A stretch of DNA of 64,000 bases, taken from positions 84,301-148,300 of the forward strand of contig CAMXCT020001510.1 of NCBI GenBank assembly GCA_947184155.2, given 5' to 3'. Shown here one piece after another: positions 9,266 to 37,430 of this stretch (positions are counted from its first letter, which is position 1; each line of letters starts with the position of its first letter). Under the pieces are notes generated by a model. That model did no database searches. It worked only from the letters and a program-made list of their open reading frames with translations, and was not told the origin of the DNA. The stretch is from Cladocopium goreaui (Eukaryota; Sar; Dinophyceae; Suessiales; Symbiodiniaceae). Made by a program: the position numbers and the translations under genes.

Positions 9266-9369
9266 TACCCTCTGGTAATTTAACATAGCTATTGAAAATG
9301 GCCATTTATAGTGAGTTTTCCCATTAATATTGGTGATTTTCCATAGTTATGTTAAATTACGAGAGGGTA
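9266..9369. mobile_element. 104-bp palindromic element, copy A (introner-like MITE)
   Basis: Begins TACCCTCTGGTAATTTAAC and ends with its near-perfect reverse complement. The internal sequence CATTTATAGTGAGTTTTCCC is shared with copy B. The ends read TA...TA, compatible with a TA target duplication. It lies 14 bp inside the intron that starts at the donor of the exon at 9384-9498. Confidence 0.8.
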
Positions 9370-9383
9370 TCATTTGATCTCAC

Positions 9384-9498
9384 CATGGTTTGTGAACTCC
9401 AGAAAATGCATTGGCACTGCAAAACCAAGCTGCACTCGGCCACCTGTCGCGAGAAACTTAAGCACAACTCCAGCACCACCTGGGCTTTTTCGGCCACA
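9384..9498 (-). CDS. Internal exon, helical protein
   Basis: 38 codons plus one base between acceptor TTTCAATCAG and donor ATG then GTGAGA. Encodes VAEKAQVVLELCLSFSRQVA, ECSLVLQCQCIFWSS. The palindromic element copy A follows in the intron. Confidence 0.65.
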
Positions 9499-9540
9499 CT
9501 GATTGAAATCCGAGCATGATGTGGACACTGTGACATCCGT

Positions 9541-9596
9541 GCAACCATCCATCCATCCATCCGTCCGTCCGTCCGTCCATCCATCCATCCATCCCT
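9541..9596. repeat. (CCAT)n/(CCGT)n microsatellite
   Basis: Tandem tetranucleotides CCAT and CCGT in blocks. Confidence 0.95.
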
Positions 9597-10075
9597 GGAT
9601 TCTCGTTATTGCGATCAAGTGGTTTCATCTCACTGTGCGTGGCTCTTCCTTCTACTTCGTATCTATCCAAATCCAAATCATCATCTAAATTCATAATCCA
9701 AGTTGCGGCCCCCCAACTCCAGGTTCAGCACCTGTGGTTGTTTGGCCAAAAATGGATAAACATGCGGTGAAATTCATCGTTAATCTGCTTCATCATGGTT
9801 TCTCATCACTTTCACTATCAAACTAGTTTAAGATTGGGGAATTTCATGACTCCGAAAATCAGTTTCCCCGATGTTCTAAATTGTTCTAATGGCTATTTTC
9901 AGATACACTCCATGTTGAGCAAACATGTAGTACACGAAATCAAGCCGTATGCAAATATAAGTATGAAGGATGAAGTCTGCAGCGCATTATATAATCATAA
10001 AATATCTAAACATCCCAAGCCCCAAGATTGACGGCTTCGGGCAAATTATTGCAACCGCACCCCTGCTGTTCCCAC

Positions 10076-10151
10076 CTCGATAAAGCGCGCTGCTTTGGGT
10101 TGTGGGAGATGTTGAAGAGCTTCCCACAAATCCACCTCCATCTGTGCAACG
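10076..10151 (-). CDS. Short internal exon
   Basis: 76 bp between acceptor CTGACACAG and donor GAG then GTGGGA. Encodes VAQMEVDLWEALQHLPQPKA, ARFIE. Good splice sites and codon use. Confidence 0.6.
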
Positions 10152-10321
10152 CTGTGTCAGAGAGTCATACCTAGTAGAATCATAGAATCATGCCTCTGAT
10201 AGACCGACACATGCACAGCAGCATGATGATAGTGAAGAAAAGAAACATTGGATTCAAACAACACTTTCCCAAAAGAATTCCAATGTTGTTTCAAACCAGC
10301 ATAGACACATTATCCAGCCAC

Positions 10322-10408
10322 ATGGTGTGCTCGCTCCTCTTCCAGGTCCAGGGAGCGAAGAAAACCAGACGCTGCAGTGAGGAAATCGTCCTCTACGACA
10401 GAACTGGC
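10322..10408 (-). CDS. Internal exon, acidic helical
   Basis: 29 codons between acceptor TGCTACAAG and donor CAT then GTGGCT. Encodes ASSVVEDDFLTAASGFLRSL, DLEEERAHH. A plus-strand reading with acceptor TTCCAG and donor CAG/GTTTGG is possible but less coding-like. Confidence 0.55.
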
Positions 10409-10559
10409 CTTGTAGCAGGTTTGGGGGCTCTTAAGTCTGTTAATAGCAAAAAATGATGCAACCAAAATTGGTTGCCATGCTTCTATTTTAAGATATTCTA
10501 AGATATGCCCATGTATGCACCCGCAGAGTTGAACAGTTGCTCAACTTTTCCTCAACTAG

Positions 10560-10673
10560 ACAACCAAACCAATTGGCATCCAAATTGCTTCAGGCGGCAG
10601 AACACTGAGAGATTGGCGGCCAAGCTGCTCCAAAAGCAGCCAGACATGCCAAAACATCCCGACCAAGAAGAGG
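10560..10673 (+). CDS. Candidate plus-strand exon
   Basis: The frame LAAKLLQKQPDMPKHPDQEE ends exactly at a perfect donor GAG then GTGAGT. It is phase 0 into the candidate exon at 10785. An antisense reading is open too, so the strand is not certain. Confidence 0.35.
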
Positions 10674-10784
10674 TGAGTCGGCAGCCTCTAAAGATTGGAG
10701 AGATCCAAACCCTACTATTTGATGGGGTATAGTTGGACAGCGAAACTAAACACATCTTGGGGTATCCAATTTGGCATGGCATTT

Positions 10785-10875
10785 TTTCAAGGCCTGCAAA
10801 TGTGGCAGCAGAGCGGTGCTAAGAGACCGCATCGTTCGAGAACATCTCAAGGTCGCCTGGCGACGCTCAGTCAAG
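10785..10875 (+). CDS. Candidate exon, strand ambiguous
   Basis: After acceptor TTTTTTCAAG the plus frame reads ACKCGSRAVLRDRIVREHLK, VAWRRSVKIR then stop. A minus frame (ILTERRQATLRCSRTMRSLS) is also open. The plus strand is favoured by phase agreement with the exon ending at 10673. Confidence 0.35.
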
Positions 10876-11089
10876 ATCCGATGAGCTGTAGTCGCAGCCA
10901 AAATGCGGTAGGTTATCTAATGGATATGTTTAACATTATCCTAATATAACATTAAATGGTACATCATTACTGGTTATTTACTTATATTTACAGTATCCGG
11001 TTGTTATATAGCTGTACATTAGGATGATGTATATGATGTACCATTATAATATCCTTGTGTACTTGTCATAACACAACAAACCGGCATTG

Positions 11090-11200
11090 TATGATTCAAA
11101 ACCAACTGGCCCTGGGACTGGCCTTTGCACAACCAATGGCCAGCGAGGCTGCCTGGTGGAGCGATAGCGAGTGGAATGTTGATGTCACAGCCTTCCAAAG
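11090..11200 (+). CDS. Candidate exon, unknown
   Basis: Plus frame QLALGLAFAQPMASEAAWWS, DSEWNVDVTAF has coding-like composition, but the splice sites are not clear. Confidence 0.3.
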
Positions 11201-11269
11201 TCTATTAGCGATATATGTTTTCAATAAACCTCCCAAGATTTCCCGAGAATGGTGGCTCATTCATTAAAT

Positions 11270-12050
11270 GAACAATAGCAAATGAATGTCTATATGACGG
11301 TTCATCATCGTTCGTCCATCCTTCATCCGACAATTCAGTACCCAGCACAAAATGAATGATACTGCAATCATGCTACAACTATCATATACCAGTTTGATAC
11401 AACTAATATACCTCTATATATATACATGTTTCCTTGATAGTTGTACATAATTATGACAATGGTCTAATCATAGTACACATATAATTGTCATATATATATG
11501 ATAAGCATATCATTATGACAAGTATCTAGTAATGGTATATCATCCTAATGTGCAGCTGTATAACCAATAGTGATATATTCAGTATATATTCCTATTTCAA
11601 TGATACCAAATATGATAGTTGTTGACATATCTATTGCCAAAATTGTGATGAGTATCTATAATATATGGAGGTGTCCTAAAATGGTGGATCCCAAAGTCAC
11701 CATAGCTTTCAATACTAAGTCATGGTCTGATAACTTGGGTGATTAGGGGGTACCCCTATGACTTAGGAGACTTAGGAACCCCCCCCCATATAACGGTCAT
11801 GATATATTGTTATTGAAATATCTATTATATTCTATTATACTGTAATAATGGTAAGGATCTTTATTTCATCCAACCATTATCAATGTCATTCATTTTCTCC
11901 AACCATTATAATCATTATGATTGTTCTGTATGATACCCATCATAATGATTATAATAATTTTACCCATCATAATGATTATCATTATATTGTTCTGTATTAT
12001 ACCCATCATTATGATTTTCATAACAAAATGTTACCCACCATTGATCCATT
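11270..12050. other. Non-coding AT-rich stretch
   Basis: TA microsatellites, (CATNATGATTAT)-type repeats near 11880-12020 and one copy of the GGTACC-core dispersed repeat (11660-11800). No convincing exon. Confidence 0.6.
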
Positions 12051-12053
12051 CCT

Positions 12054-12087
12054 TCGCTCGCTTCGCTCGCTTCGCTCGCTTCGCTCC
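12054..12087. repeat. 9-bp tandem repeat (CTTCGCTCG)n
   Basis: Nearly four perfect copies. Read on the minus strand in the frame of the adjoining exon it would encode repeated Glu-Arg-Ser. Confidence 0.9.
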
Positions 12088-12089
12088 AC

Positions 12090-12177
12090 CTCCATGGCTT
12101 GCAGCTCCTGCGCCAGCCGCAGCACTGCCTTGGCGAACGGCAGCAGCGCTGCCAAGGCTGCCTGAAGCGGAGCCAAG
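12090..12177 (-). CDS. Internal exon, Leu/Ala-rich helix
   Basis: 88 bp between acceptor GCCCTCAG and donor GAG then GTGGAG. Encodes LAPLQAALAALLPFAKAVLR, LAQELQAME. If the donor is not used, the frame continues into the 9-bp Glu-Arg-Ser repeat. Confidence 0.6.
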
Positions 12178-12433
12178 CTGAGGGCAATTCACCAAGAAAC
12201 TTGGAGCTTCAATGGGTATTTAATACCAAATACTTGGTCCATTGCTTATATAATGTTATATATCTAACAGTTGGTTATATACCCAACAATAACATAACTT
12301 GATGTGGATGTAATCAACTATAAATTGTTGGGGATGTTTCCCCTGTCTGCCAGGCGCTGTTGGAGAAAACGTATCCGTTCTGCTCGCGGACTCAAGTGCT
12401 GCAGTCCTGAGTTTGTTGACATTGATAAAATGT

Positions 12434-12537
12434 TACCCTCTGGTAATTTAACATAGCTATTGAAAATGACCATTTATAGTGAGTTTTCCCATTAAACATG
12501 GTGATTCTCCATAGTTATGTTAGTTTACCAGAGGGTA
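12434..12537. mobile_element. 104-bp palindromic element, copy B
   Basis: Same length, termini and internal sequence as copy A (TACCCTCTGG...CCAGAGGGTA). It sits 43 bp inside the intron that follows the minus exon 12581-12640. Confidence 0.8.
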
Positions 12538-12580
12538 AATATATTTTGTCAAGAAGCAATCTTTGCCAATCTCCCGCTAC

Positions 12581-12640
12581 CAAGGCCTCGCATGTGGCGA
12601 TCATCTGCTTATCATCAAAGCTTTGCAGCACTGCCAGCTT
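12581..12640 (-). CDS. 20-codon internal exon
   Basis: Acceptor GAGTGCAG, donor TTG then GTAGCG, phase 0 at both ends, encoding KLAVLQSFDDKQMIATCEAL. The neighbouring sequence has several overlapping open frames, so the exon could extend. Confidence 0.5.
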
Positions 12641-13291
12641 CTGCACTCGGGCAATTCCGAGCCTTGGACGGCAAATGAGGACAGTTCTGTTTCACAAGGC
12701 CCAGGGCCGTTGTCAACCAGTTGTCCCCGTGAGTTCTGGTGGTTTCAGCATCCCTTCCAAACATAGTCATGACAGGTTCACGAGGCAGGATGGAGAAAAA
12801 ACATCACACAACTTGAATCCACCAACCAATCAGGACGATGCTGGCCATTGTACCAGTCGCTTACTAGGGCTTCACAGTTGATGACGATGACCCTCTAAGG
12901 TCCAAACAGCACGGTGACCAAGGTGTGCGTGTTCAGGGCATCAGCCTCTTGTCAACATGAGCGAGTCACTTTACCCTTAAAGGGTATCTGATGAACATCC
13001 CCCCAAAATGCACAGAGTATCCCAAAATATTTCAGAATTGGATGAAAATTGAGTCACGAAACTTGGGAAACCCCTGGATTTGAAGTAAAAATCCTGTTTT
13101 CCAATTCCACCGAAAACCAATCCGTTGAGACTGGATCGTTTTGGGATTTTACCAACTAAGATCAGATCAACTAAGCATATGTTGGTTCCCTCAAATTTGA
13201 CCCGGTCCCATCTCGTTCCATGCTGCTAATAAAGGTATGAATCCAGAAAATCATCCCCCAACAATTGGATGGTCATCAATGTCATCAATAC

Positions 13292-13475
13292 TACCCTCTG
13301 GAATTTAACATAGTTATGGAATGTTATGGGAACATGGCCCATTTATAGATGATTTATGATTTATGTAGCTGTGAACCCATGTTAAAACATGGTGATGTTC
13401 CATAGTTATGATGATTTATGTAGCTGTTAAACCATGTTAAAACATATAGTGATCATTCCATAGCTAATTCCACAG
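13292..13475. mobile_element. Diverged copy of the palindromic element
   Basis: Left end TACCCTCTGGAATTTAACAT and the core CCATTTATAGATGA are recognisable. The right end is degraded and the element is longer through internal duplication of TGATTTATGTAGCTGT. Confidence 0.5.
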
Positions 13476-13517
13476 CTAGTGACTTTAAATCACCTGGTCA
13501 CATGTCAGACATGTCAC

Positions 13518-13635
13518 CTGCCGCGCCAAGCGATGCAGCAGCTGGGCACTCCAAGGCGGCGCGGGCCGTGGCAAGGCCAACAGCAGCGAAGCGCAATGGC
13601 TGGGTGCGAGCCGTGGCAGCCTTGGTGCCAGAGAT
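13518..13635 (-). CDS. Internal exon, Ala-rich
   Basis: 39 codons plus one base between acceptor GATATCCAG and a strong donor GCAG then GTGACA. Encodes ISGTKAATARTQPLRFAAVG, LATARAALECPAAASLGAA with very high G/C at third positions. The antisense frame is also open, but lacks the splice sites. Confidence 0.65.
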
Positions 13636-13750
13636 CTGGATATCTCACGTAGAAAGGTAGAGAGAGACAGGACAATCAATATTGTATGATAATTATATGT
13701 ATATAGGCTATATATATATAATGTGGATTATACGATTATGTATACATGTA

Positions 13751-13885
13751 ATAATATATATATATATGGGTAAATTATAATATTTCACTAACCTGAATTA
13801 AGGCCATTTGGAGATGATTTCCCTTACTAACCATGATTTCCAGTGAGGTCGCAGTGAGGTCGTTATAATTTACCCAGATATATAT
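13751..13885. mobile_element. Small palindromic element inside a TA microsatellite
   Basis: GGGTAAATTATAA near 13768 and its inverted copy TTATAATTTACCC near 13864-13876 flank about 85 bp. (TA)n runs continue on both outer sides. Confidence 0.6.
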
Positions 13886-14009
13886 ATATATATGTATATA
13901 TAATAAGTATAAATATTATATGCCTCCATAAACGTGTGTACAGGTAAATGACTAATTTGTATAAACATGCAACGATATCAATGATATCATAATGATATCG
14001 ATACATTGC

Positions 14010-14110
14010 CGCGTATTTGATGCTTGTATTGCATTGCCACGAACCGGCTGATGGCCTGCAATTCTACAGCCTTTCCCGGCTTCAGATTCAGCATTCTCAA
14101 GCAATGGCTA
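14010..14110 (-). CDS. Candidate exon
   Basis: Acceptor TGCCAACAG; frame SHCLRMLNLKPGKAVELQAI, SRFVAMQYKHQIR. The donor is uncertain (possibly GC). Confidence 0.45.
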
Positions 14111-14286
14111 CTGTTGGCAGTTTGAGTTTCCATGATCTTAAGCATGAGACTGGAACATTCGCCCATAAAACTCGAAATGATTCAGCATGGTAAAGACATA
14201 TTTGGATATATTTGGCATATCAAATTTATCTGTCCTCCATACTTTCTGCTTCATGACTTGGCCCCTTGTGGCAATCCACCAGTCAC

Positions 14287-14388
14287 CTGACGTCCACTGG
14301 GCTCCCAAGGGGTGACGAGAAACTCTGGTTCCAACTGAGCCAGCAGCTGCGATAGCCTCCCTCTGTCCTCGCAGGTATTCATGGGTCT
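14287..14388 (-). CDS. 34-codon internal exon
   Basis: Acceptor CACATCCAG, donor CGTCAG then GTGACT, phase 0 at both ends. Encodes RPMNTCEDRGRLSQLLAQLE, PEFLVTPWEPSGRQ. Good boundaries. Unknown protein. Confidence 0.65.
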
Positions 14389-14479
14389 CTGGATGTGCTC
14401 GAAACATAAACTCAGTATAATTCAATGACCATAATATGTGACCTTCAGATTTCCACATAGTCCGCACATGTCTTCACTG

Positions 14480-14640
14480 CAAAATAGATGACCAATGATG
14501 ACCAACATGTCTTCTTCGCACAATTGCCGACTCTTCAAATACTGATACTTTCTTCTACGCAGGAGCATGGTGTCTTCAAGCATTTTAATCATCGAATCGA
14601 ACACCGTTTCAACTTTGATGCAAAACACCACATAAATTTG
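14480..14640 (-). CDS. Candidate exon
   Basis: Frame FDSMIKMLEDTMLLRRRKYQ, YLKSRQLCEEDMLVIIGH looks like charged helices. The codon bias is weaker and the boundaries are unclear. Confidence 0.35.
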
Positions 14641-14849
14641 GAGGCCTGTAGAATCTTTCTGTCTTGAGAGGTATAATCGCGTCACGTGTCTACATGCGAT
14701 GCCTCAGATGCCCTCTCTTCTAGACAGATCATCCTACTCTATTTCGGGGACCTCGAATCCATTCAAAATATTCAAACCCATTATTTCGGGCAGGATGTTT
14801 CTCCTTAGGTGAAGATGGTGAAGCAATTCCAAAGATCTCCAGATCCCAC

Positions 14850-15036
14850 CAGATCCTCGCGGCCGCATCTCCTGCGTGTTTTTTTTATGGTCCACAATGG
14901 CCTTCACCAGCTCCTCCCGGTTCAAGATCTTGGGTGCCTTTGCCTTGGCGATGTCAACATTGTCAACCTCACCCGAATAGGATGGATTGACTTCTTGGGA
15001 CATCTTGGGACTTGGGATCCCTATAGATGATGGAGC
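14850..15036 (-). CDS. Internal exon, unknown protein
   Basis: Strong acceptor TTTTTACTGCAG. Phase 0 frame APSSIGIPSPKMSQEVNPSY, SGEVDNVDIAKAKAPKILNR, EELVKAIVDHKKNTQEM. The donor is probably G then GTGGGA. The charged helical C-terminal half could be a coiled coil. Unknown family. Confidence 0.65.
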
Positions 15037-15165
15037 CTGCAGTAAAAATCAACCTGTGCACAAATGAAACATAAAGAATCACACTGACAAATGCTTCTTG
15101 CAAGAATCAGCACGCTTCTTTTGGCATAGATCTTTGGCACCCAAAGGCACCAGCTGATCTTATGT

Positions 15166-15378
15166 GTCCGCACGCTGCTCAAACCTCTTCTTGCCAGTTT
15201 TCTTGGGCACTGGAGGGTTGGGATCCTTGAAAATTCCAATGACTTTGTCAAAAGGATCTGGCCCCGCTGCTCCAAAATTGATGGGATCGTCCGCCATTTC
15301 GGACTGTTCTTCGGAGAACTCCTCTTCTGGACAGCTGACCTTGAATGATGGAAGTGAGGTTGACGAAGGGGGGGCCAC
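15166..15378 (-). CDS. Internal exon, low-complexity Pro/Ser and acidic
   Basis: Acceptor CCCAACAG, phase 0. Encodes VAPPSSTSLPSFKVSCPEEE, FSEEQSEMADDPINFGAAGP, DPFDKVIGIFKDPNPPVPKK, TGKKRFEQ. The donor near 15166-15175 is not a clear GT (candidate non-canonical site). It is preceded in phase by the microexon at 15495-15518. Confidence 0.65.
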
Positions 15379-15494
15379 CTGTTGGGAAAATATGGATATG
15401 ATGTGTATATTATTTGTATATAGTATAAACATACCAAAAAGCGTACTTTGTGTGTCAGCGTATAATAGTGTAATATGCGAATGTATAAACGTAC

Positions 15495-15518
15495 TGAGCT
15501 GGCTTGCAAATCAGCAGC
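15495..15518 (-). CDS. 24-nt microexon
   Basis: Eight codons (AADLQASS) between a textbook acceptor CATTTTCAG and a donor GTACGT, phase 0 at both ends and phase-matched to the exon at 15166-15378. Confidence 0.5.
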
Positions 15519-15639
15519 CTGAAAATGAAACGCGGCATATCTACTGTATATAGGTTTCGTTTTTGGGGGCCAGGCTTCGTTTTGCAGGGCTTTGGCCACA
15601 TTCTGTAGATCAACATTGCGTGTCAAAAGGAAAATGAAA

Positions 15640-15900
15640 GGGAAATGATGGAAAATGAAGATGATGGATAATGTCTAGGAAGCATTGTTTTGGCATGTTT
15701 TGGCGGTCTTTTTCCTGCAATTGTTCACAGGCTGACATCACTCTGACATCGTCTGGAGAGGGAACATGAAGCAAAATCGTCTTTTTGAGGCACGTGGACC
15801 CATGTCTGAAAAAGAGTCCGAATCTGAAACAAGGCTTCGTTTTTGGCTTCAGTTTTGCTTCGTTTTTTAACACACTCGATTTCTGTGTTTTTTTTGGTGG
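15640..15900 (-). CDS. Candidate exon(s)
   Basis: Frame TCLKKTILLHVPSPDDVRVM, SACEQLQEKDRQNMPKQ. Splice sites are weak, so confidence is low. Confidence 0.3.
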
Positions 15901-15909
15901 CACAAATAA

Positions 15910-17540
15910 ATACAAATTCATATAGTTTGAATTTGAATCTGATTTAAAGCAAAGTCAAAATGGATTTACATTCAAATAACAAACACTTTAGATTTAAACC
16001 AATGGCGATTCAGACTCAATGTACCGAAGAGTCAGTTAACTTCAAATTGACCTAAATCTAATTTCAAGTCAACTTAGCTTGACAATTAAGTTAACATGTA
16101 TTTGATTTTAGTTCAAATTTAGTATATTTAGTAGATTTAATCTAGAATTCAATTTCATCATCTAATGAAAGCATGGTAAGAAGCCAAAACCAAAAGCCCA
16201 AAGCCAAACTGACAAAAATATAACAAACATCCAAACAAAAAAATGCTTCTCCCATGCATAATTGTGTGTGTCTTTAACAAGTGGAATGAACCTGCATGGA
16301 TTGATGCCGCAGATCAATGTGCAGCGTATCATGAAAACATAGGCTTCGATTTTTGGTGGCTGCGCTTGGTTTTCCCAGGTTTCGGACCAGTTTTAATATT
16401 CCCTTTCCATATAAACTGTTGACACCTTTTGATCGGGGTTACCATTACCCAGGGTAACCTGTGCCCCAGGTTTTGTAGATACAAATCTGACTTTAGAACA
16501 CAAAACTACAAAAGTGGAGTCAGTCAGGAAAAAAAACCCTACAGAAGAATGTCCCGGTTGGAAAAAATATTCCTACAAAAGTCTCAGGGTTTTACAACCT
16601 ATGTTTTTTTTGTGTTTTTTTTGTTTTTGAAATAGCCTTAAATTTCTATAATACTTTTGTAGGGCCTTGTTCACATGTTGGTTGATAACTTCTGTAGTGA
16701 AATTTAAGGTCCTTTTTCTGGATGGTCCAAGGGCACAGGATATTTTTGTAGTGAATCTGGGGTTGATTTTTTCCTCTACGGCAACTGCTTTCAACAGCTT
16801 TCAACCAGGGATTATTCTGACTAACTTAAGCTACTTCTTGGGTCGTACCATGTCGTACCTTAAAAAAATAAACAACACTCCCATTTCCCCAAGATTTCCT
16901 AAGTTTCTTTTTCACGGTCTTCGCGATGGATTGCTTCTCGTCATTTTTCTGCATAGCTGGGCTATGCACCAAGACGATCCAAGACGATCCTACAGGATCC
17001 TACAGGCCCTTGCTTTTGTCTACCCCTGACAAAAAATACATATAAATGTATATAAATATAAATAAATATATGAAAATTCAATAAAATTCATGGTAATTCT
17101 TGGAGAATTATTCTTGGGAAATGTGTTTGCATGATGTTAACTGAACATAATTTCCGTAGATTTGCAAGGCCTTTGTGAAACCTTAGATTGGAACTAGGCC
17201 TAGTAGTACTACAAAACCGTCTGCAGCTACAGTTTTTTGGGGCACAGCATACCTACAAATTGTTTTTGGCCACAATTTATCCATTACAAAAGACTCTTGG
17301 TTTTCGCAGTAGGTCCATTTAAGGATTCATACAATTTGAACACTTTTGGTGGACCAGGCAGGAATGCCTACAAAGGTATCGCTCTACTACAAAAACCGGG
17401 TACCCAGCAAAGTGATCCTTACAAAATGGAGCCTTACAGAACCCTTTGTAGGGGTCACATGATACCGGCTTTTGTAGAGACAATGGTATCCCCGATACCT
17501 TTTGACTAAGCCCTTTACGTGGTAGCATGGTAGCTCACAT
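15910..17540. repeat. Non-coding; dispersed TACAAAA/TTTTGTAG-rich repeat
   Basis: 16430-17480 contains many copies of (C)TACAAA(A) and TTTGTAGG in both orientations, with GGTACC-like boxes; the text is reminiscent of 26980-27430. 15920-16160 is A/T-rich with repeated ATTTAAATTC-like words. No coding signal. Confidence 0.5.
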
Positions 17541-17546
17541 ACATTT

Positions 17547-18389
17547 CTACAATATAAACATAGGAAGCATCGTGCATTCCGCATTCCAAAGTTTGCGCCC
17601 AGGCACTGGGCGAAGTCGCCCTTTCTTCAGCAATCCATCCTTCAGGGATTTGTAGCTTGCGGGGTACTTTGCCCCAATGTCATCATGGAACTGGTGGTAC
17701 AATTCAGCCTGGTAGAAGGGAAACTGCTCGGAATCATAGATCCAAACCACTTGAGTATCAGCAGTATCTGGATCACTGCCCTGTGCCACTGCCAGTTTCA
17801 GTCGCCCTGCGTTGGCTGCAACAATGTCTGGGAACACGCTCGAATTGGCGCCACCTGGGAGTCCAATCATGGCTCGATACTCTGCTCCAACATCCTGAGC
17901 ATCTGGCCGCCCAGCAGGTTGTTCGGAGACCACCGAATCCAGGTAGGCTTTAGCAAAGGCTGCCACCTGATTCTCAGGCACCTGCGCAACCTTTACTGCC
18001 TCTGCATGGCCCAACCTGGAATAATCACGGAGTGGAAAATCCAAGTTGTGATAACAAACTTGCTGTTTTTTACCCTGAGTTGGTAATCCTCCAGCATATC
18101 CTGTAATGGATGTGACTTCATTGCCCGAAGTGCGTGCTAGAAGCTGCGATTCCAACTGCACCATGTCTCTTTGGACATGCCAAAAGCATCCTTGCCCAAA
18201 GTAGATGTCGATCCCAGACGTCTCCGCCACGGCTGGTGCAGCCCCTGCAGCACCCACCAGGGCTCCCAACAGGCCGCGTCGTGGCATCGAGGGTTGGAGG
18301 AAGCCGAAGATCCATCGACATTGACCAGTCGTCAAGGCACAAAAGCCGAAAATCCAAAGCGCTCTTCGGAGCTTTGCCGAGGAACGCAT
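17547..18389 (-). CDS. msrA: Peptide-methionine (S)-S-oxide reductase (MsrA-like), probably thylakoid-targeted
   Basis: An intronless ORF of 280 codons from ATG (18387-18389) to TAG (17547-17549). It reduces methionine-S-sulfoxide in proteins, a repair reaction using thioredoxin-type donors. The MsrA core is clear: DIYFGQGCFWHVQ with catalytic Cys68 and Phe/Trp, then SITGYAGG (95-101), VCYHN (111-115), LGHAEAVKV (126-134), GAEYRAMIGLPGG (168-180) and FPFYQAELYHQFHDD (223-237). The layout (YHN, MIGLPGG and a YHQFHDD near the C-terminus) is that of the divergent algal branch rather than the E. coli form. The N-terminus is longer than bacterial MsrA. A hydrophobic stretch (about 9-31) is followed by PRRGLLGALVGAAG ending in AVAE (36-56), which reads like a signal peptide plus a twin-arginine thylakoid transfer domain. 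A plastid lumen location is therefore likely, but inferred. No introns, unlike its neighbours, which suggests origin from an mRNA copy. A weak spliced-leader-like word lies about 75-85 bp upstream of the ATG. Confidence 0.92.
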   Translation of the reverse strand: MRSSAKLRRALWIFGFCALTTGQCRWIFGFLQPSMPRRGLLGALVGAAGAAPAVAETSGIDIYFGQGCFWHVQRDMVQLESQLLARTSGNEVTSITGYAGGLPTQGKKQQVCYHNLDFPLRDYSRLGHAEAVKVAQVPENQVAAFAKAYLDSVVSEQPAGRPDAQDVGAEYRAMIGLPGGANSSVFPDIVAANAGRLKLAVAQGSDPDTADTQVVWIYDSEQFPFYQAELYHQFHDDIGAKYPASYKSLKDGLLKKGRLRPVPGRKLWNAECTMLPMFIL

Positions 18390-18781
18390 CAGACCGATAC
18401 TTTAAAGATGTTTTAAGGGGATTGAGAGATGATTGCACTTGGAAAATTGGGAGTGTGTGATTTGGAGCCAAAACTTTGGAATCAAGAATGCAAGCGAGTC
18501 TTGGCAAGATATATCTTCTTGAAACACAGAATGTAGTCAAATGTATTCAATGCATTCAAACAAAAAAATCAACGATAAGTATCTCTCGGTCCCTTGCTGA
18601 GGGTGGTTGCACCAGGCGCACGCCTGGGAACTGGTGCAGTGAACAAGCGACTTGCCACGTGGCAAGTCGACATGGCCATGGAATGCCATGGAATGCCATG
18701 GATACTGGGACCTCTTTTTTGATGTGGCCCAACAGATCCCAGTGAAATCTGTGAAATCAATAAACAGAATTAAACAGCTAC

Positions 18782-25360: not shown

Positions 25361-25362
25361 AC

Positions 25363-27660: not shown

Positions 27661-27959
27661 TTTTGCGGGTTCGGAGGGTCAAGGTATATAATTTTATATA
27701 TACATATGTGATATATCATATCATTATGTATATGTATATACAACACAAGGTAATATTGTGACACCAGAATATACTAAGATAACATATGTAAAAATAACAA
27801 ACGTCATTTAAATGTCTGTATATGTGTAATATATTCATCATATGTTGATCATATTATCATCATATTTTCATCATATATTATAAACTACCGCTACGCATAT
27901 TGTGAATTGGTAGGGCTCTATACTCCTTCATCGTACCTATATCACTATATGATGTCATA

Positions 27960-28320
27960 CATGGAGGTTTCCTTAATTGGGTGGTAGCCCCAAATCATCG
28001 AAGGAGATCATGACTTTGTATTGACCCATGGTGACTTGGGGATCCCCCGTTTAAAGAAACACTCATATATGTCATTTATAGGATATACCATTATATATAT
28101 ATGTATCGGTATGTATCACATCTTGAATAACTGTCACATGGAGGTTTCTTAAAATGGGGGTACCCGCAAATCATCCATTTTTATAGAATGTTCCATTTTG
28201 CACATATATAAACCATCCAGCTATTGGGATACCCAAAAAATCCTTCATTTTTTTCGGATTTTCCATTCTAAACCATCCAGCTGTTGGGGTAGCCCCATGA
28301 CTTTGTAAAGCTTCGTACAA
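27960..28320. repeat. GGTACC-core dispersed repeat, two tandem copies
   Basis: ACATGGAGGTTTC(T/C)TTAA... GGGGGTACCC..., AAACCATCCAGCT(A/G)TTGGG. The same words occur at 3930-4015, 11665-11800, 35036-35125, 36395-36660 and 56150-56215. Confidence 0.7.
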
Positions 28321-28387
28321 TCCCTTCCTCCTAATATTAAACACCCCCTAAAAACCATGGTTTCGTAGGGAAATTCCACATCATTAG

Positions 28388-28520
28388 ACCATTTAGGGAG
28401 TGTTTAATATTAGATAATATTAATTAACCATAATTGTGACCATTTGGGAAGACTGGGAAGTGTGTAATATTAGATAATATTAATTGATCATTGGGACCAT
28501 TTAGGGAGTGTTTTTCATAT
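28388..28520. repeat. About 52-bp triplicated unit
   Basis: GACCATTTAGGGAGTGTTTA with ATATTAGATAATATTAATT occurs three times with small changes. Confidence 0.7.
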
Positions 28521-28614
28521 TAAGGTGGGATTATTCATGAAAATTACAATATAATTTAATTAGCCACCAATTATATATAGATTATTATAGTATTAACCAC
28601 TAATTAACCACTAA

Positions 28615-28791
28615 TTATAGTATGTCATCCGCCATTTCACATATTTCACGCGCCTCTCTGAGGTCCTTCGCGCACCAGAACTTCTCGGTGCGGCTGGCGT
28701 TCAACGCTGCGTGGATCCGATCCACCACCTTTGGCGTCGTGCCGTGGTACCAGCCTGGGATGGCGCCTGCCGTGGCCATAACGTTGGTGAC
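28615..28791 (-). CDS. Terminal exon, unknown protein
   Basis: Exactly 58 codons plus TAA after the acceptor CTCGCCAG. Encodes VTNVMATAGAIPGWYHGTTP, KVVDRIHAALNASRTEKFWC, AKDLREAREICEMADDIL. Codon use is strongly coding-like and it is bounded by AT-rich DNA. It is phase 0, compatible with the exon at 29669-29749. Function unknown. Confidence 0.75.
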   Translation of the reverse strand, partial: VTNVMATAGAIPGWYHGTTPKVVDRIHAALNASRTEKFWCAKDLREAREICEMADDIL

Positions 28792-29668
28792 CTGGCGAGG
28801 TCAGAAATCTGTGGCGAAGTTAATCTGGTTCAATAGGTTTCAATGTGGTTCAGTTTGTTTTAATATATGGGAATATATATGGGAATATTATATATTATAT
28901 ATATATATATTGAAACAAACCACAACCCCATATATTTGAATAATTTTGAATATGGGACCTGGGGAGGAACTGCATCATTCCTTCCTGATGTTGTGTGACG
29001 AATAGTGAGTCTTGATGCTTTGGAGAAATGTGACATCCATTGTTTGTGGATCTTCGGGGCAACATTTTCCCAAAACCAATGGACCAATCTAAACAACCCC
29101 GGCGCGAAGAGATAAAAATATGAGTGGCCCATGACTTGTGCTAAAGTCGTAAGTGCATGCCATGCAGACACAGACATATAGTAAATCATCATCAGCCATG
29201 TCGAGGCATCCAAATTAAATTGAGTTGGGCAGTAGGAAACTGCTGCGCTTGGCCCAGTGCTTGGTCGAAAGTTGCCTCTGACTCTTCCCAGCTGGTAGTT
29301 GAAACAATACTGAATACGAAAAAACATCCGTTGCTTTTGTCCATCGAAACAGGTTGACTTGAAAGGACACTCCAAAAACCTTACCAAGCGGAAATCTCAT
29401 TTACAAGTGCAGAAGACAGTATCTTTGGGTGGTGCGCATCTTAGTACCCTCAAAAGTCATCGGCCAGAAGAACAGTGGTCAAAAGTCTAAGGATCGCCAG
29501 GAAAAAAAAAAGATGTTACCACTGCAAATCAGTGTGACATGGTATGATCAGAAATGGTATGATAATATATACCATGCTATATATATATATAGATTACAAT
29601 TGTATATACAAATATTACCACCCCCCTGAGACATCCTCAGATTAAGATCTTTAAAGACATTGCCGCAC

Positions 29669-29749
29669 TGTTGCCTGCGTGATCTGCATTTCATGAATTG
29701 GTACATCTGCTTTCTTTGCGTCAGCAACTTCCAGCACCACTTTTGCTTC
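29669..29749 (-). CDS. 27-codon internal exon
   Basis: Acceptor CCCTTTGCAG and donor ACA then GTGCGG, phase 0 at both ends. Encodes EAKVVLEVADAKKADVPIHE, MQITQAT. It joins in frame to the terminal exon at 28615-28791. Confidence 0.6.
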
Positions 29750-29947
29750 CTGCAAAGGGCACAATGTGCAGTTTCTACTGGGTGGAATGATGGCAAAAAT
29801 CCAAAAGGCCTTAACTGGGAAACTGGAAACCATAAGGGGTCCAATGTGTAAATATAATGATATACATATATATATATATGTATATATATTATACATTATA
29901 TTCCCCTCACCTGCTAGTACAATGCCGTTTAAACCATGACGAGACTC

Positions 29948-30007
29948 ACCTGCAGTAGATTCACCAATAAAAACCGTTTCCGCAAAGTAATACGCTGCAT
30001 TCTCCAT
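29948..30007 (-). CDS. Candidate exon with consensus donor
   Basis: Ends at CTGCAG then GTGAGT (perfect donor). Frame ENAAYYFAETVFIGESTA or, to fit phase 0, QRITLRKRFLLVNLLQ. Confidence 0.4.
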
Positions 30008-30169
30008 GGCAAAAACGCCAACAACAAAAAAACTGTTATGTTATATTATATTATATTATGTTATATTATATTATATTATTGTATTATTTATATATATATA
30101 TATAAACGCCAACAATGCGAACTCAAAAATGGATGTTCAACTCCTATCAACTCAAAGGATCTCAATTGG

Positions 30170-30334
30170 GACCACCACGCGGCCACGCGGTGCCTCAGAC
30201 TCCACTAGGACCGCCGTCGAGTTGGATGCACACTTTCGAGTTTCTTCATCCACACCATCTTTGCAGCTGCATTCTGCAAGTTTGCCTGTTCGGCTGAAGA
30301 CCTGAGACACTGCTTCGATCTTCTCACTGAGACA
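30170..30334 (-). CDS. Internal exon, Cys-containing
   Basis: Frame CLSEKIEAVSQVFSRTGKLA, ECSCKDGVDEETRKCASNST, AVLVESEAPRGR. Acceptor CATCTCAAG; the donor is one of several GTGG sites. The clustered Cys (CSC...C) may form disulfides or a metal site. Confidence 0.55.
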
Positions 30335-31179
30335 CTTGAGATGTTTTGGGCGTGCCAATCTTTGGGAACGTGATGATCAACCAGTGGATTTTTAGAGATC
30401 CCCTATTAGCAAAAGGCCAGATGAATGGCGATGGATATCCAGGATATCGTTGGAGTACCATGGACCCACAAATGGCTGGTCATGTTGAGTATTCAACATA
30501 TTCAACATATTCAACATTCTATAATCCTATAATATACAATACTATATACTATTACTATAATATAATATTTATGTATAACATTGTATAACAGTTATTCATT
30601 TTTGATGCGTTTCTTGGCGTTTTTTTGTGAGTTGACCCATACTCAATTGAAAATGTCAATCCTGCCATCAGGGGGACCCCCCAAATCCATCCCTGGTTGA
30701 CTGCTGAGCTTCACAGACTTCCCGCTGCTTATCATCGTAGCACTCAACTCCTCAGGCACCGCAGCTGCGGTCACAAAAAAGCTGCGTGTGACTTAATGGG
30801 ACATAATGGGACTACCCCTCTTGGATGAAGGATTACTCTATAACTTATAACTTATAACATCTTATAACCCTTTATAACTTTTGTGGGGAAAGTTGAAGTC
30901 AGGTCTCTCCCTACCAGTACGGTCCTGTTCTTGTTGGACAGGAAACGTCACTCCGTGGTCATCCAGGATTTAGCTCCCAAGGTCGCTGGGCCAAGCAGAA
31001 AACAGCAGTTTCAGTATTCGCAGACAAGAATATGCATGTTTCGCGCTGCTCAAAAGGAATATGTGATACATGTCATTTTAAAATGTTCAAACACTAACAT
31101 AATACATATGCATCTGTATACTGTATACTGTATACTGTAATTAAATGCAATTATTAAATTATCATCAATTATCACTGAC

Positions 31180-31400
31180 CTGGATGGAAAATGATGTAAC
31201 CTCATGTCGTTTTGGGGGGTCCACGCCTTCGACACGGGAAGCCTTCTTCGCGATGCGATCGCCACCAAGACTCGAGTGAAGCACTCATCCACTGGCATTT
31301 CAGCTTGGAAGGTGCAGAATGCATCGTAGCTGCCATGCCCAATCCTATGACATTCACTCGATTCACTGAGAATTTTCATTGACTTGCCGGTTGCCGCTCC
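31180..31400 (-). CDS. Internal exon, possibly C-terminal part of the PrsW-like gene
   Basis: 221 bp between acceptor TTTGTGTAG and a strong donor AG then GTCAGT. Encodes GAATGKSMKILSESSECHRI, GHGSYDAFCTFQAEMPVDEC, FTRVLVAIASRRRLPVSKAW, TPQNDMRLHHFPSR. It lies downstream of the PrsW exons on the same strand, but continuity with them is not proved. Confidence 0.6.
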
Positions 31401-31699
31401 CTACACAAACATGTTTGCCCGGTCAAAATCCGTTGGATATTCCTATATATTGCATAGTCATACAGTGTCATACATTATCAAACAAGTCTACAAATGTCAT
31501 ATAAGTTAAGTGATATATTGTCAGCAAAACTAAAAAAATGATCCAAGCAACACCATCATGATCCAGCCAATGAACCTAAGCCACACGCATGGCCGTGAAG
31601 CAAAGCAATACCACCACTGGAATCAGAAACATCACCATCGCACATGCTACAGTACAAGCACTTCACATGCTCAAAGAAGACGCATCAGGATCCTCCAGA

Positions 31700-31836
31700 A
31701 CTGTCCGCAGTGCCAAACAGTGCTCTACGAGGATTGTCCAAAGAAAAAGCACCCGTGATCAGCCGTGGATATGACAAGCCGCATGACAAGCCCCGTGAGA
31801 TCCCGTGCGCCAATTTTGGAAGTGAAGTGACGATGA
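31700..31836 (-). CDS. Probable next exon of the PrsW-like gene
   Basis: Acceptor TTGCTAAAG, two-base start matching phase 1 of the exon ending near 32473. Frame IVTSLPKLAHGISRGLSCGL, SYPRLITGAFSLDNPRRALF, GTADSS. A moderately hydrophobic stretch would extend the helix after the catalytic His. The 3' end is uncertain. Confidence 0.45.
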
Positions 31837-32472
31837 CTTTAGCAACCACTGACAGTCACTGACATATAATACCTTGATGTTCAGATGATATTCTTCAAGA
31901 TTTGCCCTCAGATTCAAAAAAGTGACCCCCAGCCATCACATTTTGTCAAGTCACTTCACAAAGGGCCGTTTTCTCTGCGAAAACAACGAAATCGCTAGGA
32001 AGAAAGAACAAGTTCCTGACTTCCGGTTGGAAGGTCGCTGGTCTACTGCTGTGCCTTTTGGTTTGTGAAAGTGCATCGTGTCTTTTCTATGGACGTGCTG
32101 GAAAACCCATCACCGACCAATATCAATCCTCGGTTTAGGTTGAAGCAGCAGTGTCTGACCCTTTAGCGTCTTTAAGATGCCCAACTGAATCCTTTCTCTT
32201 TCTCATTGCCAGGAACAATTTATTGTGACAGTGATATCAGTCTGGAAACATCCGCAATCACAATTGAGTCCCATCAAAATGCTACTGCTACAGAGACTTT
32301 CCTAGCAAATACACCGAACATGGTCGTTCAAAAAAATTTGGGTGCTATCTCCAATAGATGGTCGTGTCATCGGAAAAAAATGTGTAAAAAATGATGATCA
32401 ACCATGATCAACCAGTGATTTTCCAGCATCATTTCCAGTGATGTTCCAACATTTTCTCCAGCGGTGTCCACG

Positions 32473-35400
32473 GTTTCCTGTCATGGCGATGTGGAGCATG
32501 GCCGTAAAGATGCGGACGGAGGCTGGGAGAATGCTGCCAGTGGCTTTCACCACGCCGGACAACTGGCAGGAAACATCAGGAAACCATGGCTGGAAAGGTG
32601 CAGCTGGGTGCAGCTGGGTGCAGCTTTCCGGGCTTTGTGGATAAAGGAAAAAAATGGAAAAAAGATGAAAAATCCTGGAAAGCATCCTTTTTCACAGGAA
32701 ATATAGAGGTGTCCGGTTCCAATTTTTGGCTTATCATCCAAGTCCGGGAAGGCCTTTGTAGGAAACTCGGTGAACTGCACTAATTATACATTTGGAGGCA
32801 ACTCTCATCAACTTTCCAGTGTTCAACGGCAGTTGGGTTTTCCCAAGAAAACTATGCGCCAAAATTATGGAAAGGCATGGAGGGGCGCCAAATCTCATGG
32901 TTCAAGTTCAATAGGAACAGCAAGCAAACATCTTGGCTGGTTCGGCATCCAATGTTGACCTGTACCTTTATCCAAATGAGTCTAGGTCAACATCGAACAC
33001 ATGGACCACAGATTTTGGATGATTTAGGAATATTTCAGAATCATCCAATGTGTATTTTTGGGAGACCAAAATGAATCTTGACCTCCAAATCTTCCCCATC
33101 TTCCCACCTTGGCAATGTACTGCACATTCTCCAAACTTCCAAAGCCAGCTCCGGCAGCCATACCGCACAAGACGACCACTGCTGGGGAAGCAGCAAACTT
33201 CCTCAACGCGAGGGATCGAGGTCTGGCGAAACAACATGCTTCGATTCCGAAACTTGGAACATCTTGGAAACAAGAAAACAAATTCCACATTCTTCACAAT
33301 CTTGAATGTTGAATCTCATGCCTTCAACTGCATTCAAGAACCGATAAAAATATACAGGATACTTTCATAGACTTTCCCACTTCACTTCTTGAGATCCCTG
33401 GGCTCTGCATTAATCTCGTGCAAGGAACAGAAACCAACCACAGCACGGCATGCCTCAGCAACGATCTCTGTGCGGTCAACTGTTCAGGGCGAATCTTCTC
33501 GGTTCCAACTGTTTGATCGGTTCTCGGTTCCCCATGGGGTTCCCCCAAATCCAATGGTTTTATCATCTCCACCAGAAACGACATTTCCAGTGTCCCAGTG
33601 TCCAATGGTGTTCCGGAAGCCAAGTTTCAGGAGATGGTCGACATCCGGGGAAATCGTGTTAAAGCTTTGGATTTCATCGCCTCCTGCGGTGTGGCTTGGG
33701 CCCCTGGGCCCCGTTGGGCTGGGGGGGTGCCATTGATCCACTGCCACTTCCACTTTCCCAAAAAAAGACATGCTCCTGTGGTTTTCAGGTCCAAATGCTG
33801 GAGAATGTTTGAATCCAATGATTGACATTGACTATGTTTCTCCATTCGTAACCGAAAACAAGTCCTACAATGTCTCGAAAGCTCTTGGAACAGGGAAATG
33901 GCCTCCAAACTGGTGACCAACCGCAGCAGCACCATAAATTTGAAGGATTCTTCCACGATACCTCTGGCGACAAATTTGCGACATCTCTGCTTGAGATTTG
34001 GATCCAAGTCTTGAAGGCCTTGACATGCCTTGACTATGGTGTTTTTTTGGAGTCACAGCACTTTCTTTGAATTTCAAGCAAGTCACCTGGTGTGAGCACC
34101 CACTCCAGATTTGCTTTGGCAACGCAGCCGCCACTGGGTGCTTCCATAGGCCACTTTGGGCCTCATGGAGTTTCGCGGAACAAACATGGGATCAACGAGA
34201 AAATCCTGCTTTGTAGCGGTCATATGTCTTAGCATTTTTCAATGGGCCAGGACGGTGCTGCCTGGGGAAGTGCTTTTTGACTGCGCAGGGCCAGTGTTTG
34301 AATTTTGGGATGTCAGCGGAATGCCGAATGGCTGACGAGACTTGTTTCCAAAACACAAAACTCTAAAACCTAAAACCCTAAACCTAAATGTAAATATAAT
34401 ATGTCATGAAACCCGAAGTAGGCCTTGAAAGAATTTGTTTTTTACGACCATGGTAAAAATAAGCCTAAAAGCCCTAAATGAAACCCTGGATAAACCCTAA
34501 ACAAACCTTAAACAAACCCCAAACAAACCCTAAAGAGTTGGTGACATGATAAACCTCTGGGCGGCACCCCCGGCCTGGGGGTATAATTATATGTATAGAG
34601 GTAAATAGTTCACACGGTGATGCCAAATTTATCCAAATTTAGGGTTGTGTTTAGACAATGTCACGGACCCATCCCACCTACTGGCATGGTGGCATTGCAA
34701 TCTGGATCTGCCGCCGTCCAAATCAACAGCAGGAGCGTGTTGAAAATGCCTCAAACATTTCAGCAATGGTCAGCAGTTCGACATAAACCAAAAAATGACG
34801 GCTGTCACATCCTGGATGGGCAATCAAGCAGAAAGTGGAACGTCCACAATTTTGTGTCTGTCTTCCAAAAACTCACGGTCAATTCATGTCAATTCACAAC
34901 AAATACTGTATGTGTCACTTCAGGTTATCTGCAAAACGCCCCAGTCAACTCCCACCTGCACACTCGGCAGAGAATATGGCGCCAGCCCAGAACATGCTCA
35001 TGATCAACCCGGCCTTTCAGGTCCAGTGTGTACAATGGGGGTACCCCCAAATCATCCATTTAAATAGGATTGTCCATTATAAACCATCCATTTTGGAAAC
35101 CCCCATTTTAGGAAACCTCCATGTGGCTTTAATAATAAGGAAAAAAATGGGAAACATGCATGAAACCATGGATTCATCACAGGGGGTTCAGGTGAATTCC
35201 CTCAAGACAATTCTAGGGCAACCCCTTGAAAGTAGCACATGGAAATTGAGACGCTGGATGGGCGAGGGAACATCGTCAAACATCTGGATGAATATTCCAG
35301 CCGAAGTCAGCCGAAGTAAGGTCATCTTGGGATATCTTGGGATGGTTTTCAGTGGTTCTCAATGCCAAAGGGTCACATTCCGATGGATGTCGCAATATCG

Positions 35401-37430
35401 CCGCATTTGCCCAGGCGCCTTGACCGGTTCCTTGCTGAAACGGTTCACCAAATACCTAGGGGCACATCACGTAAGATACAAAGTCATAGGCGGCAACAAT
35501 ATCACAAAATGATGATATAATACAACAAGTGGATCATCATATCTATACAATCATACTTGTACGAGATATGATATATATATATAATATATATATATATATA
35601 TTATGTAATACATTTATATACATTAATTATAGATACAGTAAAGTTTATGTAGTATTCCGTATTCCCATATATTACCAGTATTACCGTGGCAATGCAGCTT
35701 CTGCTGTCCATCCAACGTGTTTCATTTGGAGAATCCCCCTGATTGAGGCAACACACCACGAAGGCACCAGGACTACCTCGGCGGGTCCAATTACCCTCTG
35801 GTTATTTAACATAGCCATGGTATAGATGGCCCATTTATAGATGGTTTACCTATTAAAAATGGGTGGATCTTTCCATGGCTATGTTAAATAACCAGATGGT
35901 ATTTGTTTCTGGTACTTAAACAACTTCTTGAAGTACCACTCACTGCCACCAGACATGTTTCTACAATAGTTTCGCACCTGGACAATGCGTTGATCGAGTG
36001 ACAGCTGCGGGTTTGGGGAAAACTGAGCGCCCACACAATTGCACCGAAGGATTCGATAATAAAAAGTGCCTCCTTGGTACTGGCCACTGGGGCATGGATT
36101 AAATGTTTGGCACTTTTTAGGTCTTTTCTTGTAGTTGCGATGCGAAGACCAGAACATAGCTGGCGATCAAAAGTGAGAGGTTTGCAGCCTCGCATATGAC
36201 TGCAATGAAATTACCTAATGATTCGTTCATGTAAAATCACTACAATATAAAATGTGTAACCATAGCCCTGCTTGATTTCACAGGGGAACGGAAGAAATTC
36301 AGGAAGGGAACCACATGTCGATCTTCAAGTGGCTTGAAGGGCCCCAACTAAAACAATACATTTTATCCCTGCTCGCTGGAAAGGGCTATTGTTTCCAAAC
36401 AGAATACCCCATCTTTGACCTTTACCCGCCATATACTTTTGGTGTTTCAAAATTTGGTATACCCAAAACATCCCAAAACCATGATGTTTCCCATTCAACA
36501 TTGCACATTTGGATGATTTTGGGTCCCCCATGACTTAGGAAACCTTCATTTGGAGGTTTCCTAAGTCATGGGTGTACCCTGAAATCATCCATGTTTTACT
36601 AGGATTTTCCATTCAAAATCCAGCTATTGGGGTACCCCTATTAGGAAAAAAACAATTTGATGCCAACAGTTGGGTCCCAGCATCTTCGAGCCAGCGCTCT
36701 CCCGGCTGCGCAGTGATGAAGTGCTTCAAGCCGCCTGCCGACCCCAGCTACGCCCAGCTTGGCTCAAGTCATTAGGGGCCCCCAACAATACAATTTTATG
36801 CCGTAAAATGATTGATTTACTTACAGTATATAAATGATGATCATGAGTGTTTTTCCAGTTCTATAACTTCCTAGATGATGATGAATATTATCATATTTTC
36901 GAACATGATTGATAATGTCTTATCTTCCAATGGCCAGGAATGATGGGTACAGTTTTTAGACGGACCCAATTGGCAATCAATCATTTTTAGGTACCCTTTG
37001 GCAGTCGAATGATTTTTTCATGCATCTATGTGTGGATATGATCGGGGGTGATTTTCCATCACCAGGATGAACAAAGCTCGAAATCGACCTGAATCTGATC
37101 CATCAGAACCTTCTTGCCCTCCGTTAATTGGAACAATAAGCACAATGTGTTAAATCCCAAGTCATCATATTGATTGTTAAATCCAATGGCTAGCATCTTT
37201 GATGTTTGAATCTTGATAATCTTGTTTAGTTGTGGTTGAATCTTATCATTATTTATCATTTATGGTTGATTAAATACAATTTGAATAGGTTAATCCTAAG
37301 TCTTTGATGGTGAACCACCATTTTGTGGCTGGTAAAATGCCCAACCTCCACTGCACCCACCAGCATACCTGCCACGAGGAGAAGAATGGTCCAGAAGGTG
37401 CAGGCAGTTGTGCCAAGCCTTAGCAAACTA
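32473..37430 (-). CDS. PrsW-family intramembrane protease (multi-exon model)
   Basis: Exons in order: 37430-37369, 36159-36045, 35455-35377, 35013-34956, 34749-34678, 34018-33922, 33718-33573, 33479-33386, 33222-33108, 32562 to about 32473. All nine junctions agree in phase. Domain signs in order: a membrane helix (TFWTILLLVAAMFW) followed by a basic stretch; RYLVNRFSKEPVKA, the N-terminal EP box of PrsW proteins; helices GLIMSMFWAGAIFSA and FNTLLLLIWTAA; the first active-site motif EExxK in RGIVEESFKFMVLL; a loop; GAGFGSLENVQYI (GxGFxxxEN, second motif); and VRIFTAMLHIAMTG (Arg...His, third motif) with the usual spacing. In bacteria PrsW cleaves the anti-sigma factor RsiW within the membrane; the eukaryotic substrate is unknown. 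5' and 3' ends are open: likely further exons at 38827-38885 (upstream) and 31.2-31.8 kb (downstream). One intron holds palindromic element copy C. Confidence 0.75.
34362..34532. repeat. Telomere-like interstitial repeats (CCCTAAA-type)
   Basis: CTAAAACCTAAAACCCTAAA (34365-34385) and AAACCCTAAACAAACC-type words to 34532. Degenerate relatives of the plant-type telomere unit CCCTAAA, within an intron of the PrsW-like gene. Confidence 0.6.
35036..35125. repeat. GGTACC-core dispersed repeat
   Basis: GGGGGTACCCCCAAATCATC ... TAAACCATCCATTTTGG ... TAGGAAACCTCCATG, in an intron of the PrsW-like gene. Confidence 0.75.
35567..35612. repeat. TA microsatellite
   Basis: (TA)n within an intron. Confidence 0.85.
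35792..35901. mobile_element. 104-bp palindromic element family, copy C (110 bp)
   Basis: TACCCTCTGGTTATTTAACA at the left, its inverted copy at the right (TGTTAAATAACCAGATGGTA), and the family core GCCCATTTATAGATGG. It lies inside the intron between PrsW exons 36159-36045 and 35455-35377. Confidence 0.85.
36509..36598. mobile_element. Long hairpin within the GGTACC-core repeat
   Basis: CATGACTTAGGAAACC and its exact inverted copy GGTTTCCTAAGTCATG flank a 10-bp loop. The stem extends outwards imperfectly to GGATGATTT / AAATCATCC. Confidence 0.85.
36680..36775 (+). CDS. Candidate terminal exon, opposite strand within a PrsW intron
   Basis: Plus frame SQRSPGCAVMKCFKPPADPS, YAQLGSSH then TAG, with nearly all codons ending in G/C. 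A minus frame (GVAGVGRRLEALHHCAAGRA) is also open. The strand is uncertain. Confidence 0.4.
   Translation, partial: ASSSQRSPGCAVMKCFKPPADPSYAQLGSSH

Follow-up and report, generated by a model that had tools for sequence, protein, structure and literature searches.

Stowaway miniature inverted-repeat transposable elements (MITEs) are described as small palindromic elements that target TA, fold into hairpins and lie in introns and other non-coding DNA (PMC1925063, PMC3626606). The Submariner MITE of Pandoravirus salinus is a near-palindromic, noncoding member of the Tc1/mariner superfamily with a 243-bp consensus, a TA duplication and 30 copies (PMC4495683). Introners have also been described with inverted repeats: the published example from Symbiodinium microadriaticum is 115 bp long with terminal inverted repeats and 4-bp duplications (PMC9860276). 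The Amoebophrya introner elements have inverted repeats and a stem-loop and are located in dinoflagellate introns; their splice sites are non-canonical, direct repeats are present and no repeat motif is specific to the family (PMC7789003). Here we characterise a family of palindromic elements of about 104 bp found in a 64,000-nucleotide stretch of the Cladocopium goreaui genome (assembly GCA_947184155.2, contig CAMXCT020001510.1, positions 84,301 to 148,300 of the forward strand; the window). The original prediction had taken these for an introner-like, possibly active MITE family sitting in introns. The element is very probably a non-autonomous cut-and-paste MITE of the Tc1/mariner-like kind with TA as its target; it is an ordinary kind of element present in very high number.

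The window (GC content 44%) contains three full copies (Table 1), with the coordinates, lengths (104, 104 and 110 bp) and shared core that had been predicted. The two 104-bp copies are 92% identical to each other; the 110-bp copy is more diverged, with identities of 78% and 75% to these two. All three are near-palindromes with TACCCTCTGG at both ends; the predicted common termini hold except that the first copy (TACCCTCTCG) and the third (TACCATCTGG) each differ by one base at the right end. The window contains 22 words within one mismatch of TACCCTCTGG, where 2.75 would be expected and none of 100 shuffles reached 22, but 11 of these are TAACCTCTGG words inside a separate repeat-rich region (40247-44893). 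That region, where the eleven recurring TAACCTCTGG words accompany long repetitive reading frames, is apparently unrelated to the element. A single long DNA hairpin extends over nearly the whole length of each full copy (z of -9.45, -7.30 and -10.41; 0 of 200 shuffles in each case), and the 104-bp consensus of 27 copies folds as RNA at -61.3 kcal/mol. The general layout is CCCTCTGGT...ACCAGAGGG, an arm of about 49 bases followed after a short loop by its inverted complement, with TACCCTCTGGT as the end word. The two eroded copies that had been suspected also belong to the family by profile match.

The flanks of the element identify its target site. TA is present at the start of 69, at the end of 70 and at both ends of 67 of the 72 full copies with flanking sequence, which range from 103 to 135 bp and are mostly 104-110 bp long. 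Direct repeats of 1 to 8 bases past the TA were found 20, 5, 1, 1, 2, 0, 0 and 1 times per 72 copies, compared with shuffle means of 20.6, 4.7, 1.6, 0.4, 0.13, 0.05, 0 and 0.01. No flanking repeat longer than TA exceeded the maximum of 500 shuffles, the 5- and 8-base counts equalling their maxima (2 and 1), and a 4-bp target duplication was not found in these 72 copies. Outside the TA the flank columns have no conserved letters, only an A+T lean. One copy (L020:5008-5113, L numbers denoting loci) precisely interrupts a member of a second palindromic MITE-like family: the interrupted site reads ...CCTG-TA-(element)-TA-GATGTTTCCC, and the empty relatives, in L025 and in the window itself, read ...CCTG-TA-GATTTTCCC, such that one TA becomes two in L020. 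Two neighbouring elements in L014 have one TA in common. The TA duplication that had been proposed as a check is thus seen both in the flanks and at this nested site.

The genome searched comprises 1,165,616,438 bases in 6202 contigs. With the first window copy as query, a DNA search yielded 378 candidates; the 40 that were scored proved 88-100% identical to it, and counts from this search are lower bounds. An exact 23-base element end has 17,195 matches genome-wide (8583 forward and 8612 reverse), with 0 for the reversed-word control, and since one copy carries two such ends at most there must be at least 8,598 copies. A profile search of 280,847 bp (the window plus sampled loci) found 100 copies, 74 of them full length. 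When the seed copies of the loci are left out, the sampled sequence holds 6 exact ends per 73 copies (47 full), which extrapolates to ∼200,000 copies with a wide error, and the window density of 5 copies per 64 kb scales to ∼90,000. As the sampled loci were picked for containing a copy, only an order of magnitude (10^5) is meant; the genome perhaps holds about that many. The MITE family of the original prediction is accordingly supported by the palindrome, the TA duplication and the copy number. The 23-base end (with one ambiguous base) had no match in viral_contigs or genome_contigs, which may omit records near this genome.

Twenty-seven copies of 104 bp, most of them picked because they resemble the first window copy, diverge from their own consensus by 6.0% on average (2.9-9.6%). 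Nearest neighbours among them have 96-103 of 104 bases in common and one pair differs by a single base, which makes fairly recent movement of the element plausible, as judged from sequence. Of the 40 matches that were scored, the one closest to the first window copy, apart from that copy itself, is 96% identical. Present activity of the family, as originally suggested, is unsupported. The arms come in two variants, TAATTTAAC and TAAACTAAC, and every left/right pairing is represented (5, 14, 6 and 4; window and L002-L028) among the 29 of 72 full copies that were typed on both arms (Fisher p 0.11), as if the arms had been exchanged.

A transposase encoded elsewhere would bind the terminal inverted repeats and insert the element at TA, and the target TA would end up as two copies flanking the inserted element. 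Copies landing in introns or other non-coding DNA would persist, because insertion into an exon would introduce stop codons. Several results weigh against a Tc1/mariner-like MITE. A cognate transposase with the element ends was not found in searches with DDE_3, DDE_1 and Transposase_1. None of the eight DDE_3 places, all of which were inspected, carries element ends at the transposase repeat; these loci measure 2.8-3.4 kb and one end of the repeat is visible in them, the far end falling outside. The visible end reads (TA)n-CTTCAGGAGGAAC or near it, and the one element copy in a DDE_3 locus (L033) lies outside the repeat. DDE_1 gave 150 scored places out of 716 candidates, and the four of these that were inspected all lack CCCTCTGG ends. 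The clean TA duplication is known from the single nested site, and of the four relatives compared with the interrupted MITE, L017 and L006 have a different sequence at the insertion spot. A genome search gave no paralogous empty site for the three window copies, nor did comparing the flanks of 107 copies, over 360,091 bp, reveal a joined site, although the strict filter used also missed L020. Transposase_1 had no match in this genome or in 14 control genomes, a null that is uninformative because the controls were also without a match.

The transposase loci have features of their own. The DDE_3 repeat (L030-L036) contains frames of 397 aa in four places and of 415 aa in another, with shorter or interrupted frames in two more; its aligned pieces are 82-100% identical and several copies have a (TA)n run at one end. 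The DDE_1 frames (L049-L052; for example on contigs C3290, C5566 and C875), which we take to be pogo/Fot1-like, are mostly 300-380 aa and often lie in near-identical tandem arrays with a period of ∼2.0-2.1 kb. A piggyBac affiliation of the element was set aside by reasoning only, there being no TTAA.

No Pfam family marks a gene beside the window copies, and for this reason a codon-usage score was trained on long dynein reading frames from the same genome. Six-frame Pfam scans gave no family in 5001-14999 and one sub-cut-off match in 32001-37000 (PrsW, E 0.0039), so the genes around the copies are left unnamed. On another dynein gene the predictor recovered 5 of 5 exons at threshold 8 and 4 of 5 at threshold 10 (scores 9.3-19.0), a lenient test as this gene belongs to the protein family used in training; four of its exons had been marked by homology and one by eye. 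At threshold 12 it predicted 141 coding segments in 270,946 bp, compared with 4 in Markov-shuffled sequence. At threshold 11 the minus strand holds 14 of the 15 segments between positions 4848 and 15381 of the window, and the first and second copies and the eroded copy beginning at 13292 each lie between predicted minus-strand coding segments. Codon-usage prediction thus supports a position for these three within introns of a predicted minus-strand gene. A candidate GT donor is present between the first copy and its adjoining predicted exon, and a second minus-strand segment (12618-12797) overlaps the predicted exon adjoining the second copy. For the 110-bp copy the codon-usage prediction gives no convincing surrounding gene; the expectation that all three full copies lie in introns is therefore supported, by prediction, for two of them, with the third unplaced.

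Table 1. Features of the window: copies of the element, predicted coding segments beside them and copies of a second palindromic family.
Feature	Position	Strand	Remarks
Full 104-bp palindromic element (first copy)	9266..9369	+	profile strand, element nearly symmetric; TA at both bounds
Full 104-bp palindromic element (second copy)	12434..12537	+	TA at both bounds
Full 110-bp element, more diverged (third copy)	35792..35901	+	TA at both bounds
Element right half	1082..1138	+	profile match, profile positions 50-104
Eroded copy	13292..13418	+	profile match, profile positions 1-94; exceeds model length
Predicted exon adjoining first copy	9402..9515	-	codon-usage score 12.6, prediction only
Predicted coding segment	8806..8940	-	codon-usage score 13.0, prediction only
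Predicted exon adjoining second copy	12548..12682	-	codon-usage score 13.5, prediction only
Predicted coding segment	12024..12185	-	codon-usage score 29.1, prediction only
Second palindromic MITE-like family copy	38217..38316	-	empty-site reference for L020 insertion
Second palindromic family copy	13035-13128	+	∼100 bp, CAATGGATTGGTTTAAGGGAAAA...
Second palindromic family copy	32669-32741	-	∼100 bp family, CAATGGATTGGTTTAAGGGAAAA...

The second palindromic family (∼100 bp, CAATGGATTGGTTTAAGGGAAAA...) has 12 matches in the 280,847 bp examined. Elsewhere in the window a 284-aa reading frame (17547-18401, minus strand) contains a GCFWHVQ motif, which we take to resemble peptide methionine sulfoxide reductase A.

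Copies are also found in other genes of this genome. A dynein gene on contig C714 has three (one full, two shortened) within 5.1 kb, outside the exons found. The full copy, of 115 bp, lies in an intron of 221 bp that runs from AAG/GACGG (from 3058) to CATAGCAG (to 3278)/GAAGAA in the merged reverse-strand stretch of L045, L047 and L048 (slashes mark exon boundaries), with 88 bp of other intron sequence before the copy and 18 bp after it. The copy is therefore part of a longer intron with both splice sites outside the element, on a protein reading guided by known dynein sequence, the downstream exon being read by eye (coding score 19.0). As read, this dynein heavy chain intron is of the GA...AG type (AAG/GACGG...CAG/GAAGAA), with a non-GT donor. 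Such a donor, the size of the genome and the GC content of the window are all in keeping with a dinoflagellate of the Symbiodiniaceae. A helicase-like gene (L004) carries two copies between putative exons ∼1.4 kb apart; the first matches AAA_12 below the cut-off (E 0.0011) and the second, a later frame, has what is presumably a helicase motif. Frames near exons, ten each against Pfam and NCBIfam, gave sub-cut-off matches only, including NAD_binding_8 (L019), AAA_12 (L004) and DUF1868 (L008), and two solved-structure searches gave nothing useful.

A tendency of the copies to sit near exon ends, especially on the donor side, was considered and is not claimed, because the outcome depends on the scoring threshold: the excess stands out at threshold 12, is less marked at 10 and disappears at 14. 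From a set of 96 copies, 93, 88 and 75 were used at thresholds 10, 12 and 14, with L026 (GC 0.20) excluded and copies dropped that had no predicted exon in the locus or short flanks. An exon was predicted within 50 bp of 18 of 93 copies at threshold 10 (14.0 expected; reached in 129 of 1000 draws), 16 of 88 at threshold 12 (7.6 expected; 1 of 1000) and 3 of 75 at threshold 14 (4.9 expected; 900 of 1000). For donor-side nearness the corresponding counts were 13 of 93 (7.3 expected; 15 draws), 12 of 88 (4.3 expected; 0 draws) and 3 of 75 (3.0 expected; 590 draws). None of the 96 copies overlaps an exon by more than 30 bp, a trivial result because the element's own stop codons block the coding score. 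Open frames on both sides, at 42 of 61 copies compared with 61% of unmatched control TA sites, show little.

These data bear on the prediction that the element is an introner, that is, that it brings or borrows splice sites so that any exon it enters gains an intron consisting of the element itself. Inverted-repeat introners have been published for Symbiodinium microadriaticum and Amoebophrya; the consensus ends, CTCTG/GTAATT and TTTACCAG/AGGG, are usable GT and AG sites; and two window copies, at distances of 11 and 33 bp, and several sampled ones are no more than 35 bp away from a predicted exon end on the donor side. Were copies usually introns, however, same-strand coding would be expected at both edges. 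Among the 96 copies, such coding lay within 40 bp on both sides of 4 at threshold 6, 1 at threshold 7, 1 at threshold 8 and none at threshold 10; placement at random, with no matching of TA or GC content, gave 3.1, 1.4, 0.9 and 0.4, so that there is no clear excess. The second window copy is one of the four with weak segments on both sides at threshold 6 (plus strand), where the test has five entries, one copy being counted on both strands. With splicing at the GT and AG nearest the consensus ends, the spliced message would be 13 or 11 nt longer and out of frame; only the inner sites (+21, +24) would preserve the frame. The element flanks show no 4-bp duplication, and the dynein intron exceeds the element on both sides. 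With that copy inside a longer intron and two-sided coding flanks near the random rate, as scored from sequence, the family is not supported as an introner, and we regard this origin as very unlikely; intron-resident copies are passengers, and intron creation does not occur at a detectable rate here. It is improbable, too, that the CTCTG/GTAA inverted repeats act as ready-made 5' splice sites, some copies at the downstream exon edge supplying a working donor. If this were true, an abundant MITE that does not make whole introns would reshape the ends of exons across many genes.

Two other explanations dispense with transposition. If the palindrome were kept for a function in RNA, as a hairpin or to guide splicing, the strong hairpin and the location in introns would be accounted for, but this is extremely unlikely given thousands of copies divided almost equally between the strands with TA at both ends, and no Rfam family was found in the window at the gathering threshold. 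Multiplication by segmental or tandem duplication of host DNA might be suggested by copies that are close neighbours, most clearly the ten full copies packed into 9.9 kb of L014. Duplicated host DNA would, however, share its flanks: no conserved letters extend beyond the TA apart from the A+T lean, the genome search found no paralogous flanks for the three window copies, the comparison across 360 kb found no joined site, albeit with a low sensitivity that missed L020, and the L020 copy interrupts another repeat precisely. We give duplication a next to negligible chance. A TA-targeting MITE that resides in introns remains the preferred explanation, and the analysis separates it from an intron-making introner, two readings that look alike in raw sequence. 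Numbering 8,598 copies at the least and possibly 100,000, the family also offers an extensive collection of natural insertions that could be dated, could help to find its transposase and could show whether elements carried in introns turn into splice sites.

The literature search found no paper naming the element, which may already be in print, for example in Roy et al. 2023 (reportedly the main dinoflagellate introner paper, cited in PMC11453091 and outside the search), or in a repeat library. The Symbiodinium microadriaticum introners resemble the element in their similar length, terminal inverted repeats and dinoflagellate host; they have a 4-bp duplication, whereas here there is TA only and the fully read copy lies inside a longer intron. 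The Amoebophrya elements share inverted repeats, a stem-loop and an intron location, whereas here a single family has fixed ends and no direct repeat beyond TA. With Stowaway MITEs the element has in common its small size, palindrome, TA target, hairpin and location in introns and non-coding DNA. Stowaway ends are CTCCCTCCRT, compared with CCCTCTGGTW here, so that CCCTC is common to both and the Stowaway end itself is absent; Stowaway elements are mobilised by Tc1/mariner, whereas no mariner-like partner was found here with DDE_3, DDE_1 and Transposase_1. Submariner is likewise a near-palindrome with a TA duplication and no coding capacity, but it is 243 bp long with 30 copies in a viral genome, whereas the element described here is mostly 104-110 bp long and present in thousands of copies in a genome of 1.17 Gb.

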